Made by a program: the position numbers and the translations under genes. The notes under the pieces were generated by a model, which made no database searches, was not told the origin of the DNA, and saw only the letters and a program-made list of their open reading frames with translations. Below are positions 9,296 to 36,944 of a stretch of DNA of 64,000 nucleotides, one piece after another. The stretch is from a virus: IMG/VR virus record IMGVR_UViG_3300044695_006482, positions 1 to 64,000 of that record; one strand, 5' to 3'. Positions within the stretch are counted from its first letter, which is position 1; the number at the start of each line of letters is the position of its first letter.

Positions 9296-9568
9296 ATGGA
9301 GGAGATCCTCAATCGCCTGGACGACATCGAGCGCGCGCTGGACAAGCTGATCCGCGCCACAGTCGCCACCCCCGAGAACGACTGGGTGGACTCCAAGGAG
9401 TTCTGCCGCCTTGTTGGACTGCGCGACACGAAGGCCCTGACGTACCAAATGTCGAAAGGCGTGATCCGCAGCGACGCCCTGCGCAACATCGGCACCGCAC
9501 AGCGCCCTCGGTATCGCTTCCACCGCGTGAAAGCGGTTGACCAGTTCCTGAACAGGTGGGGCAAGTGA
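9296..9568 (+). CDS. Excisionase-like DNA-binding protein
   Basis: 90 aa. An N-terminal coiled coil (EEILNRLDDIERALDKLI) is followed by a winged-helix-like segment (WVDSKEFCRLVGLRDTKALT, then YRFHRVKAVDQFLNRW) of the kind found in MerR/Xis-type excisionases. It lies 38 bp after the integrase, the usual place for a recombination directionality factor. It would bend attachment-site DNA and favour excision. A TAGGGT box lies 25-30 bp before the ATG. The next gene's GTG overlaps its stop. Confidence 0.6.
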   Translation: MEEILNRLDDIERALDKLIRATVATPENDWVDSKEFCRLVGLRDTKALTYQMSKGVIRSDALRNIGTAQRPRYRFHRVKAVDQFLNRWGK

Positions 9569-9921
9569 AGAACAACGAGCAAGCGTTGGCGGACTGGGTC
9601 TACAGGCTCCACACCGAGTGGCTGCCGAACTGGCAAGACATGCCGGACAACACCTTCGTCTGGTGGAACTTGCTGCTCACTGTCCTCGACGAGGCCAGCA
9701 CTGACGAGTTCGGAGAGGTCGTCGTTCGCATGACAGCACCCGCGCTCACCTCCGCACGCCCCGCCAGTAGCGCTCCTCCGCCTTGCCCTCCCACGCCCGG
9801 TGCTGCGCCAGACGCGCAGAAGCCCGAGCGCGACGCTTGCGGAGGTTCCAGTCGTGGAAGAACTGGGCATCATCAACCAGTCGGTGCAGCAACCCGTTGG
9901 GGAGCCGTTCCGCGATCTTGA
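9565..9921 (+). CDS. Small unknown protein, convergently overlapping
   Basis: GTG at 9565 overlaps the stop of the excisionase candidate (GTGA). The first 60 residues look like a folded protein (ALADWVYRLHTEWLPNWQDM, then FVWWNLLLTVLDEAST). After about residue 62 the sequence becomes Ser/Pro/Ala-rich because the frame runs antisense through the minus-strand gene 9746-9964 without meeting a stop. The true functional part is probably the N-terminal half. Function not recognised. Confidence 0.5.
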   Translation: MKNNEQALADWVYRLHTEWLPNWQDMPDNTFVWWNLLLTVLDEASTDEFGEVVVRMTAPALTSARPASSAPPPCPPTPGAAPDAQKPERDACGGSSRGRTGHHQPVGAATRWGAVPRS

Positions 9922-9969: not shown

Positions 9970-10338
9970 TCAGACCTTGGCTGCCGAGGGCGCAGTGGCC
10001 TGAACCGGCTTGGGCACCAGGCGGATGGCGTCGTCGTCGATGACGATGTCGAGCTCGTCACCCGGTTGCAGGTTGAACTTGGCCGAGTAGGTCTTACCCA
10101 GCAGGATCACGCCGCTGCGGTGGACCGTGGTCTGGTAGGCCGCAATCTTGCCGGGAGCTTTGCCCACAGCAATCGCGACACCTTTTGCCTTGAGCAGTGC
10201 GTTGTAGAAGTTCTTGACCAGGATTTGCTCCTTGCCAGTCTTGGTCTGACGCACGTAGCCAGCTTCACGAGCGAGCTCTGTCTGAGTCATGTTCTCCCGA
10301 TCTTTGACCAGATCGAGAAGCTCTTTGCCAACCAGCAT
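9970..10338 (-). CDS. cyAbrB-family transcriptional regulator
   Basis: 122 aa, starting at the ATG that gives MLVGKELLDLV, since the longer frame to 10404 adds a non-conserved hydrophobic leader. The N-terminal part (TQTELAREAGYV then LVKNFYNALLKAKGVAI) is the cyanobacteria-specific AbrB extension, and the C-terminus (YSAKFNLQPGDELDIVI) is AbrB-like. Cyanobacterial cyAbrB proteins control carbon and nitrogen responses globally. A phage copy could redirect host transcription or help to hold lysogeny, which is inference. It is transcribed together with the DNA polymerase, 62 bp downstream of it. Confidence 0.78.
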   Translation of the reverse strand: MLVGKELLDLVKDRENMTQTELAREAGYVRQTKTGKEQILVKNFYNALLKAKGVAIAVGKAPGKIAAYQTTVHRSGVILLGKTYSAKFNLQPGDELDIVIDDDAIRLVPKPVQATAPSAAKV

Positions 10339-21156: not shown

Positions 21157-22026
21157 ATGTCCAACTCAGAACTACAGAGCTATCTGACCGATGTAGGACG
21201 GCTGCCCGTCCTCAGCAAGGAAGCGCAGCTGCGTCACTGCCAGCGCATCTTCGCCTGGGTGAACCACGCCGACGGCCGCGACTGCGCCCCGCCGCGTATT
21301 CGCCGCGCCGGCGAGCGCGCCATGACGGTCATGGTGCAGACCAACCTGCGCCTGGTCGTCTCCATCGCCAAGCGCTACCAGAACAGGGGCCTCGACATGC
21401 TGGACCTGATCCAGGAGGGCAACCTCGGCCTGATCCGCGGCCTCGAGCTGTTCGACCCGACCCGCGGCTACGCGGTGTCCACCTACGCCTACTGGTGGAT
21501 CCGCCAGGCGATCACCCGCGCCATCCACAGCATGGCCCGCCCGATCCGCCTCCCGATCAACACCCACGAGGTGCTGAGCCGGGCCCAGCGCTTCACCGCC
21601 GAGTACACCGCCACCAACGGCCGCACCCCGACCTTCACCGAGATCGCCGCGCACTGCGAGACCACGACCGAGCGCATCGTGGCCATGCTCGACCTGCAGT
21701 CCACGACGACGTGCCGCTCACTCGACACGTTGTGCACGGACGACGGCAACGCGCTGATGGACCTGATCGCCTACGACAGCACCAGCGCCACCAGCTCCCC
21801 GGACGAATCCCTGCGCCTGCAGGACAACCGCGAGGTGCTGCGCCTGGCGCTGAGCCGCCTCCCCGAGGTCGAAGCGCAGATCCTGCACGGCGTGTTCTTC
21901 GAGGAGCGCTCCCTGCGCGACATCGCCACAGAGCTGGGGTTCAGCCGCTCCCGCGCCGGCCAGGTGCAGAAGACGGCATTGAACCGCCTGCGCAACATCC
22001 TGCGCCTGCAGGGGCACGCCCCATGA
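21157..22026 (+). CDS. Phage-encoded sigma-70 family RNA polymerase sigma factor
   Basis: 289 aa. Regions in order: 1.2 ([20 protein letters not shown]), 2.1-2.3 ([38 protein letters not shown]), 2.4 ([17 protein letters not shown]), 3 ([17 protein letters not shown]) and 4 ([38 protein letters not shown]). Region 2.4 keeps the canonical -10-reading residues. Region 4.2 departs from the usual TRERIRQIE, so -35 recognition may differ. It would redirect host RNA polymerase to phage promoters. Close to the group-2 cyanobacterial sigma factors, so host acquisition is plausible. Confidence 0.92.
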
Positions 22027-22202
22027 GCAGCGAGCCCCTGGTCCGGCTGCGGTGGTACGAGCTGTGGATGCTCCGCTTCCTGTCGCGCAGCCCGCGCATC
22101 GCGCGCATCACAGTCCAGCAATTCGCCCCCGAGCCCGATTTCGTCGGCCAGCTCGAAGCGCTGTACCACGGCCCCAGCGCCGAAGGAGAGCGCGAAGGTT
22201 GA
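22023..22202 (+). CDS. Small protein downstream of sigma factor
   Basis: 59 aa, ATG overlapping the sigma stop (ATGA). [20 protein letters not shown] then [20 protein letters not shown]. Co-translation with the sigma factor raises the possibility of a modulator such as an anti-sigma or RNA polymerase-binding protein; nothing in the sequence proves it. A promoter begins over its stop codon. Confidence 0.55.
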
Positions 22203-22229
22203 CGCTTGACGCCCAGCCTGTGCTAGGCT
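22199..22229 (+). promoter_or_regulatory. Promoter TTGACG-N19-TAGGCT
   Basis: TTGACG at 22199-22204 and extended -10 TGCTAGGCT ending at 22229; a second TTGACG at 22206-22211. Drives the HTH gene at 22259. Spacer is 19 bp to TAGGCT, or 17 bp to the overlapping GCTAGG. Confidence 0.55.
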
Positions 22230-22258
22230 GCGCCACCCATCTCACGTCCGCCGTTCGC

Positions 22259-22642
22259 ATGCCCGTCCAGCGATCACAGGTCTCTCTGGACCGCCTCCTA
22301 TCAGTCTGTGACTTGATCTACGCCCGTGACGGATTCGTCACCTGGACCGAGGTCGGCAGCACCCTCGGCATCAGCCGGCAGGCCGTTCAGTTGCGCCTTC
22401 GCGCGGCTGTTGAGAAAGGCGACCTCACCCCCGAGGCCGTGGAGAAATACCAGAGCATGGCCTCACGGACCGCAGCCGCCCGAGAGCGGAAAGAGAAGCG
22501 CGAATCGGACGAAAACAAGTACAGGCGCTATATCCGTTTCATGCCAGAGAACCTGGAGTGGCTCCAAGCTCAGTCAGACGAAAGGAAAGTGACGATACCT
22601 GACATCATCAATGGCCTAATTACCAAAGCTCGAACGAGCTAG
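22259..22642 (+). CDS. Helix-turn-helix regulator with basic linker
   Basis: 127 aa. Residues about 5-50 form a winged/HTH domain (VTWTEVGSTLGISRQAVQLR), followed by a Lys/Arg/Glu-rich helix (ARERKEKRESDENKYRRYI), then a ribbon-helix-helix-like end (IRFMPENLEWLQAQSDERKV, PDIINGLITKA). Two DNA-contacting parts suggest a specific repressor. It has its own TGCTAGGCT promoter and directly precedes the long regulatory and RNA region, so it may control that region. Confidence 0.7.
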   Translation: MPVQRSQVSLDRLLSVCDLIYARDGFVTWTEVGSTLGISRQAVQLRLRAAVEKGDLTPEAVEKYQSMASRTAAARERKEKRESDENKYRRYIRFMPENLEWLQAQSDERKVTIPDIINGLITKARTS

Positions 22643-22706
22643 AATCCAATACATATACATACATTTTTTATTGCGCCCTGGAAGTGTGATGACTGCGTCA
22701 CGGCCT

Positions 22707-22788
22707 GTCCCAGGCTGGGACTAGCGAGTCTCGGCGCGACATCTATTCTCTTTCGCGCGCGAAAGGTCTCAATCCGAGACTCAATAGA
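22707..22788 (+). promoter_or_regulatory. Compound inverted repeats (operator, origin or RNA fold)
   Basis: Three nested elements: hairpin GTCCCA-GGC-TGGGAC (22707-22721); 9-bp perfect arms GAGTCTCGG (22726-22734) and CCGAGACTC (22774-22782); and between them a 16-bp palindrome CTTTCGCGCGCGAAAG (22750-22765). TCTATT (22742-22747) can also pair with AATAGA (22783-22788) outside the arms, giving a pseudoknot if transcribed. No T-run, so not a simple terminator. Confidence 0.6.
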
Positions 22789-22801
22789 CACAGCCGCCTG
22801 G

Positions 22802-22832
22802 TTGCGCCGTCGGCCGCTGGCCGTGCTAGGTT
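22802..22832 (+). promoter_or_regulatory. Promoter TTGCGC-N19-TAGGTT
   Basis: TTGCGC at 22802-22807, CGTGCTAGGTT ending at 22832, 19-bp spacer, same architecture as the 22199 and 23014 promoters. The leader downstream has hairpins GACGGC-GAT-GCCGTC and GCAGC-TTT-GCTGC and no convincing ORF. Confidence 0.5.
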
Positions 22833-23013
22833 GGCTGAGACAACCGGAAACGACCCGGACGGCGATGCCGTCGCGGACGGCGCCCGTGCTGTCACCTTAC
22901 CGCACCTTGACAACCGAACACCCTGGCCCATGGGGACCCGCAGCTTTGCTGCGCCCATCGGCCGATCACGCTTCCCTCCTTGTGCGGGTTTCGTGATTCT
23001 CGCGCCGGTTCGC

Positions 23014-23044
23014 TTGACGGATCCGGCGGCAGGGGTGCTAGGTT
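23014..23044 (+). promoter_or_regulatory. Promoter TTGACG-N19-TAGGTT for the structured RNA
   Basis: TTGACG at 23014-23019 and GTGCTAGGTT ending at 23044, with the same 19-bp spacing. Predicted start near 23051, immediately at the first hairpin of the structured region. Confidence 0.6.
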
Positions 23045-23050
23045 AGGTGC

Positions 23051-23707
23051 ACCGAACCGAAAGGGTCGGGCCAGCCGCTCCCGCGGCGCATCCTGTTTCT
23101 GAACTGCTTATGTAATGCTCTGATCTTGCTACGAACAACAACCGTGCCGAGCGCAGTGCCGAGCCCGTGATCGGGTGAGCCTGCCCAGCTTGGAGGGAAG
23201 ACGTATCGGACAATGAGCCCTTAAGGGCCGGGGTCTGTACCAGGGGCGGCGATTTGCCTGCGGTCTGGCCTACGTATCGTCTGAATCCTGGCTTCGCCGG
23301 AGGGACAAGCTGACCCGCTTTGTGCGGGCCTCTCAGAGGAGGGCACCTAGGGATAGGTGTTCAGCCCTAACCGACCCGGATGGTATGGGGGAATAGGTGC
23401 AGCGGCATGATGCCGAGCCCAAGCCCGAGCCATCGGGCCTAGGTGAGCACTAGCAGGCGCGGGCTCTGAGCCCTTCGAAGCTAGTAGCTGTCTAGTGGGC
23501 AGGCAGTGAAGCTGACAGCGCAACCCTGGCGAACCGGGGCGCGACTGTCTTGCTGTACCTATGGGAATACGCAACCCGGCTTACCCCGGCTCTGCAACAT
23601 ACGGTCACCGCGTGTTGACCGTGGCAATGGGCATTCGGCTCTGCCTAACACGCACAAACCATCTCCCCCAGAAGTTCCCCCTGGCGCACTGCGTCCGGGG
23701 GTCTTTT
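23051..23707 (+). ncRNA. Large structured non-coding RNA candidate (about 660 nt)
   Basis: No convincing ORF in any frame, yet the stretch is bounded by a promoter (23014-23044) and a terminator (23677-23707) and is full of hairpins. Examples: CCGAACC-GAAA-GGGTCGG (23052-23069, GNRA loop), GCCGC/GCGGC (23074), GCCC-TTAA-GGGC (23217), CCCGC/GCGGG (23314), CACCTA-GGGA-TAGGTG (23344, GNRA loop), CGGCA/TGCCG (23403), GCCCGA-GCCA-TCGGGC (23423), GGGCT-CTG-AGCCC (23461), a GACAG/CTGTC arm capped by CCCTGG-CGAA-CCGGGG (23514-23549), and an H-type pseudoknot at 23601-23653. Size, complexity and phage setting resemble GOLLD or ROOL RNAs, but no specific match could be shown. Conservation was not tested. 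Confidence 0.65.
23677..23707 (+). terminator. Strong terminator ending the structured RNA
   Basis: CCCCC (23677-23681) pairs with GGGGG (23697-23701) around an inner GGCGC/GCGTC stem with a 3-nt loop, one mismatch, followed by TCTTTT at 23702-23707. Confidence 0.8.
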
Positions 23708-23751
23708 GGCTGAGGTGCTTTGCACCTTTCCCTCTAGCTGTGAGTTTCAGC

Positions 23752-24033
23752 ATGTACTTTCAACACCTTTGCGCTGATAACGATTACAATGGCAATCCGC
23801 GCCGTTTGTACGTTTTAGTCGACGAAAACCTGCCCGTCCCAGCCCGTGTCGCCGCCTGGGATGAGGGCTACAGCGGAGCAGATGCCGTGCCCGGAGTCTG
23901 GCGTGACTGCGCCTACCTCGCCGAGCGCATGAACATCACCGTGAGTCTGTACAACGAGCTGCGCCGCACCCTGCCCGGCCCGAAGTGGCCGCACGAAGTG
24001 CCTGGCTTCGCGCATCTCCGCGAGCTCGTCTGA
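23752..24033 (+). CDS. Conserved picocyanobacterial/cyanophage hypothetical protein
   Basis: 93 aa from ATG. MYFQHLCADNDYNGNPRRLY then WDEGYSGADAVPG and LYNELRRTLPGPKWPHEVPG look like a conserved globular domain of cyanobacterial accessory genomes; function unknown. First gene after the structured RNA. Its leader CCTCTAGCTGTGAGTTTCAGC resembles that of the gene at 24859 and is therefore likely functional in expression. Confidence 0.65.
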   Translation: MYFQHLCADNDYNGNPRRLYVLVDENLPVPARVAAWDEGYSGADAVPGVWRDCAYLAERMNITVSLYNELRRTLPGPKWPHEVPGFAHLRELV

Positions 24034-36871: not shown

Positions 36872-36944
36872 GGGGGTCTAGCTATCTGGTGAAAGCAGCC
36901 GACTCATAATCGGCCTCAGGCGAGTTCGATTCTCGCGACCCCCA
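36872..36944 (+). tRNA. tRNA with CAU anticodon (Met or Ile2)
   Basis: 73 nt cloverleaf: acceptor GGGGGTC/GACCCCC with discriminator A; short D-arm GCT/AGC; anticodon stem GCCGA/TCGGC with loop CTCATAA (anticodon CAT); T-arm GCGAG-TTCGATT-CTCGC. No encoded CCA. The CGACTCATAATCG arm matches bacterial tRNA-Ile2 as well as Met, so it may read AUA after lysidine modification. Confidence 0.9.

Follow-up and report, generated by a model that had tools for sequence, protein, structure and literature searches.

A Large Structured Noncoding RNA Family Predicted in Uncultured Phages That Probably Infect Cyanobacteria

Results

The DNA analyzed here (the window) is a stretch of 64,000 nucleotides that forms part of a 72 kb IMG/VR virus record. 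The nearest cultured match of its portal protein is that of the cyanosiphovirus Synechococcus phage S-CBS4 (40% identity, with 71% of the protein covered), and its DNA polymerase is closest to those of Pseudanabaena phages (28%); the host is therefore probably a cyanobacterium. On the plus strand, a gene for a phage sigma-70 family factor (21157–22026; Pfam Sigma70_r2, Sigma70_r3, and Sigma70_r4) is followed directly by a 59 aa ORF (22023–22202) for which we found no Pfam match, and then by a gene for a small HTH-like protein (22253–22642), whose N-terminal part is HTH-like by a weak Pfam match and whose C-terminal part reads from its sequence as ribbon-helix-helix-like. Next come a noncoding interval (22643–23751) and a series of small genes, the first of which is a 93 aa ORF (23752–24033). 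Within the interval lies a large structured RNA of ~657 nt on the plus strand (23051–23707), whose ends we placed from its promoter and its terminal hairpin. The earlier note that drew attention to the region had begun the feature at 23014, which is the −35 box of the promoter, and had given 23051–23707 for the densely structured part, which is about right for the RNA itself. The conserved unit runs on beyond the terminal hairpin and reaches the start codon of the gene that follows.

The absence of a protein-coding frame between 22643 and 23751, proposed in the same note, was borne out. GC content by codon position is flat over 22600–23650, whereas most genes of the window have a GC3 of ~0.8–0.95. 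We compared the window with six close relatives and found that substitutions fall evenly on the three codon positions (22/27/18 against relative L094 and 22/32/25 against L116), and that the RNA region differs from its relatives by indels of 1, 4, 5, 14, 16, 24, and 25 nt. The sigma factor gene, by contrast, shows 54/30/96 substitutions over the codon positions and no indels. A codon-like pattern of substitution was thus looked for in these relatives and not found.

The RNA has its own promoter, as had been suggested, in the form of TTGACG...TGCTAGGTT (23014–23044; TTGACG followed by TGC-TAGGTT), which was recognized by a motif scan and recurs in relatives. In the 64 kb, two sites match the motif TTGACR-N13-17-TGCNANNNT (0.26 expected): one before the RNA and the other, the promoter-like site TTGACG...TGCTAGGCT (22199–22229), before the HTH gene. 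Relatives contain one to five copies, nearly all of them at this locus. Sequence and comparison with relatives also point to a second, upstream copy in tandem (22803–22831) that combines TGC-TAGGTT with a weak −35 element, TTGCGC; in relative L118 this element is TTGACC. Two to four tandem promoters, spaced ~90–125 nt apart and directly upstream of the RNA, are typical of the relatives, and because of these tandem copies we infer that the RNA is strongly expressed. A generic promoter and terminator scan picked up neither the promoter of the RNA nor its terminator-like hairpin.

Upstream of the promoters, the window contains an inverted repeat around GAGTCTCGG and CCGAGACTC (22713–22795). The same GAGTCTC/GAGACTC elements with GCGAC, in inverted arrangement, are present in L002, L005, L016, and L091 and are possibly operators for a phage regulator. 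We rejected GAGTCTC as a universal element of the locus, as its exact form occurs in few relatives only. In L091, L095, L084, and others, a CGCGC...GCGCG hairpin followed by TTTT stands shortly past the first tandem promoter and would yield a very short RNA.

All of the relatives are metagenomic contigs. We retrieved loci whose sigma factor is at least 55% identical to that of the window, and in each of them the RNA occupies the same position, provided that the contig extends sufficiently far. The widest scan, with the terminal hairpin, gave 57 contigs, from which three were dropped as unrelated on the basis of context and model score. In the remaining 54 IMG/VR contigs, which contain about 36 distinct 3′ ends, the 3′ element is preceded directly by a phage sigma factor gene in all cases that we checked: the sigma factor was confirmed by Pfam in four newly found loci (L091, L085, L101, and L089), and most of the others have a sigma-like ORF of ~300 aa upstream. 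In L016, the most distant of the relatives, whose sigma factor is 43% identical, only a remote terminal hairpin and the surrounding motif are recognizable; the hairpin motif occurs there twice (9724–9748 and 10245–10269), ~520 nt apart. No DNA similarity was found in cultured phages or plasmids, and the 20000–69420 stretch of S-CBS4 contains neither an annotated sigma factor nor a match to the RNA. A search of bacterial and archaeal genomes gave no match to the long motif and three scattered matches to the short motif, in unrelated bacteria and at chance level.

The sigma factor is the constant upstream neighbor of the RNA, and the 59 aa ORF is conserved in many, although not all, of the relatives. 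More than half of them lack the HTH-like protein, and we therefore rejected it as an obligate partner of the RNA. The slot after the RNA (23752–24033 in the window) is variable in gene content, and in many relatives the 93 aa ORF is replaced by a different gene, while the leader and the hairpin at the start codon are constant. Several relatives carry, between the sigma factor and the RNA, a reverse-strand gene that by eye appears HNH-endonuclease-like (for example at ~4080–4730 in L091 and at 9502–10062 in L010); the window is without this insert.

We assessed structure by covariation, using shuffled alignments, slid pairing partners, and a comparison of hand-chosen helices. The 3′ domain contains an H-type pseudoknot (23601–23653) whose strands pair exactly where the earlier note had placed them (23601–23607 with 23616–23622, and 23610–23615 with 23648–23653), with an inserted hairpin (23629–23633/23642–23646) that has the loop UUCGGCUC. 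Of the sequences that contain the entire domain, 18 are distinct; in these, 99.0% of the cells are paired, and eight pairs show two-sided changes (29 two-sided cells), a result reached by none of 500 shuffles. The shuffles ignore the relatedness of the sequences; a control with slid partners, which takes it into account, gave 36%–50% pairing. One pair of the stem varies among C-G, G-C, U-A, and U-G, and the next between G-C and A-U; of the pairs between the loop and the 3′ strand, one varies among U-A, C-G, and A-U and another between C-G and U-A. The variable pairs include 34 G-U cells against one A-C cell, which indicates that selection acts on the plus-strand RNA. The pseudoknot is present and covarying but is not universal, as it is absent from L132/L141, L134, and most of body class I. 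These RNAs keep the terminal hairpin, and most members of class I retain, of the pseudoknot domain, only the inner hairpin with a CGGCUC loop. Between the pseudoknot and the terminal hairpin, the C-rich stretch ACCAUCUCCC (23658–23667) is nearly invariant across all classes, also where the pseudoknot has been lost, and is unpaired in the local fold.

The hairpin that had been taken for a strong terminator is real and resembles an intrinsic terminator, and it is longer than described: CCAGAAG/CUUUUGG encloses CCCCC-GGCGC/GCGUC-GGGGG (23668–23709). Across 33 sequences it is 99.5% paired, with two-sided changes at five pairs, and its outer pairs covary through the U-tract, one of them occurring as G-C, A-U, C-G, and U-A. 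The U-tract is itself paired, and it is poor in L014 (UUGCUU) and some other relatives; because the run of U residues is broken while the pairing is maintained, this structure could be a site of processing or a terminator that leaks. Two further hairpins follow it. The post-terminator hairpin GAGGUGC-UUU-GCACCUU (23712–23728) is 93% paired, with two-sided changes at three of its seven pairs. The start-codon hairpin GCUG...CAGC-AUG (23737–23754) abuts the downstream start codon, is unique in the window, and covaries: it is found in three compensatory versions (GCTG/CAGC, GCAG/CTGC, and GCTT/AAGC), despite the differences in the gene that follows.

The body of the RNA had been described as packed with hairpins, two of them closed by GNRA loops. 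Both GNRA hairpins exist, but the density of hairpins is no proof of structure by itself, because the folding energy is only mildly unusual and close to that of shuffled and coding controls: the window RNA gave z-scores of −3.0 and −2.1 in two runs, relatives ranged from −0.2 to −4.2, and a coding control reached −2.3. We therefore rejected folding energy as proof of structure and relied on covariation with L012, which is ~60% identical. Nine helices retain all of their 47 pairs in the window and L012 alike. Two-sided changes occur 18 times in them, and there are neither one-sided changes nor broken pairs; the helices were picked by eye with both sequences in view, which makes this a strong count rather than an unbiased test. 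A tenth helix, Hg (23514–23549), is identical in the two sequences and so uninformative, and the 5′ strand of helix Ha in L012 could be either of two identical GCCACAC copies, of which we used the first, a choice that does not affect the letters. The central domain (23393–23562), which is closed by AUAGGUGCAGC/GCUGUACCUAU and contains helices Hc, Hc2, Hd, He, and Hf, accounts for 11 compensatory pairs. A hairpin cluster (23309–23365) closed by 23309–23313/23361–23365 shows three and four compensatory pairs; its GGGA (GNRA) hairpin (23344–23359) keeps its loop in L012, although four of the six stem pairs are exchanged, and a stretch of 16 nt at one of the hairpins in the cluster is missing from L116. 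The resulting model of the body is a partial secondary structure. Two-sided changes are thus seen in stems of the pseudoknot, the terminal hairpin, and the body.

By sequence alignment, bodies of at least five classes, 400–600 nt long, stand behind the same 3′ end. The promoters and the terminal hairpin are constant across the relatives, and the bodies are exchanged in blocks. A core model of class I (R2) gave no significant match to any other class, and we do not claim a core shared across the classes.

Comparison with known RNA families gave no assignment. A cmscan of the window region against Rfam 15 found no match at E ≤ 5, and a scan of eight relatives at E ≤ 3 found none except one subthreshold snoRNA artifact. 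Membership in GOLLD or ROOL, which had been raised as a possibility, is not supported: the GOLLD model (RF02032) had no match at E ≤ 1 in 11 records, and the ROOL model (RF03087) had none in 11 records and none in cmscan, although both searches were run without a positive control and so weigh less than they appear to. OLE, HEARO, 6S, tmRNA, RNase P, group I and II introns, and raiA likewise gave no Rfam or ARAGORN match; the one borderline match, to group-II-D1D4-1, is below the cutoff and lies elsewhere in the L103 record. The other possibility raised, that of a new class, is favored by these data.

Discussion

The covariation and the even distribution of substitutions show that selection maintains a folded plus-strand RNA of ~650 nt, with one to several promoters of sigma-70-like type before it and a constant hairpin at its end. 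This RNA is noncoding, longer than 500 nt, multihelical with covariation, and phage-borne, as are the large ornate phage RNAs, and by these sequence features it is a new family of that kind, uncatalogued in Rfam 15, although it may have been described elsewhere. To our knowledge, very few structured phage RNAs of such size have been found, and they have no settled function. The family adds deep natural variation, with its many 3′ ends and body classes, and its fixed gene context and strong covariation make the secondary structure, the minimal unit, and the exchange of modules open to analysis. The RNA can also be produced and imaged directly, and the block exchange of bodies on a single 3′ end raises the question of what such RNAs are selected for.

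GOLLD and ROOL, both large phage RNAs, assemble into cages made of RNA only, and GOLLD, whose function is unknown, is constant in its 3′ part and divergent in its 5′ part (PMC12286853). The cyanophage RNA resembles GOLLD in being large and ornate and in this division of the molecule, but its constant part is ~150 nt, compared with 416 positions in the GOLLD model, it does not match any Rfam model, and it lacks the neighboring or embedded tRNAs of GOLLD: the sole tRNA of the window, a tRNA-Met at 36872, is 13 kb away. It is like ROOL in being a phage or prophage RNA of ~600 nt that is rich in helices and pseudoknots and has no known protein partner. The 5′ and 3′ parts of ROOL are intertwined, however, whereas those of the cyanophage RNA are separable, and the cyanophage RNA has neither the tRNA-island context nor a match to the model. 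OLE, HEARO, raiA, and 6S are likewise large or structured bacterial noncoding RNAs, but their gene contexts differ and none has an Rfam match here. At the level of function only, the RNA can be compared with the put RNA of HK022, as a phage RNA that could act on transcription past terminators; put RNA is short and is located near the start of early operons.

The reading that we favor, with slightly less than even confidence, is that this uncatalogued family of uncultured cyanosiphovirus-like phages represents an abundant stand-alone transcript that acts in trans. The RNA would be made in large amounts, and the folded molecule would act probably through its three-dimensional shape, as a scaffold or an RNA assembly (compare GOLLD and ROOL). 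Action through shape is suggested by the large body, the GNRA loops, the pseudoknot, and the multihelix junctions, and also by the block exchange of bodies between phages while the promoters and the 3′ end stay. The terminal hairpin would release most transcripts or serve as a processing site, and residual read-through would reach the variable accessory genes by way of the conserved start-codon hairpin. As the body classes cannot be aligned to each other, a single function common to all of them is an assumption. A more specific form of the proposal, which we hold only tentatively, is a class of RNA machines unrelated to GOLLD and ROOL, in which the promoters, pseudoknot, and terminal hairpin form a 3′ chassis and the bodies are swapped, each with its own RNA-only particle or host target.

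Conservation is highest in the 3′ hairpin and in the leader of the gene behind it, a pattern that would suit a role in cis as well. The main rival of action in trans is a cis-acting leader, in which the nascent body and the 3′ domain would set passage through the terminal hairpin and opening of the start-codon hairpin and so turn the accessory genes on or off by put-like antitermination or attenuation. This is possible but rather unlikely. The terminal, post-terminator, and start-codon hairpins are the most conserved and covary, the leader stays constant while the genes that follow it differ, and the paired U-tract, poor in some relatives, implies that termination may be conditional. However, at least five unrelated bodies before the same 3′ end would be odd for a cis switch, known put elements are far smaller than 400–600 nt, and we identified no alternative antiterminator pairing that is conserved. 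There are precedents for RNA elements acting on the polymerase that transcribes them, HK022 put being an example (PMC9378689).

The near-invariance of ACCAUCUCCC in all classes, and its lack of pairing in the local fold, would also suit base pairing of this stretch with mRNAs, by which the RNA would act as a regulator and mask their Shine-Dalgarno sequences. We consider this quite improbable, as the rest of the window offers no site that is complementary at 13 or more of 16 bases, the adjoining CCAGAAG is engaged in the terminal hairpin, and an ornate body of 650 nt would be unnecessary. The constant presence of a sigma factor gene next to the RNA raises the idea that the RNA, in the manner of 6S, serves RNA polymerase or the phage sigma factor of the upstream gene as a decoy or scaffold, but neighborhood alone is a weak argument, no match to the Rfam 6S model was found, and the architecture differs in lacking a single long bulged hairpin, which makes such a role highly doubtful. 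A DNA element (a recombination hot spot, origin, or packaging site with hairpins acting as DNA) might account for the 3′ unit flanking a variable gene slot and for the block-exchanged bodies, but it is extremely unlikely, as selection on DNA would not produce the tolerance of G-U over A-C, and the region has dedicated promoters and a terminator-like hairpin.

Two minor features of the bodies were also observed. L012 and L082 contain an extra hairpin module, and in the class V relatives L010, L013, L092, and L016, repeated ACCTTGACAATTNA-like elements are found inside the RNA region.
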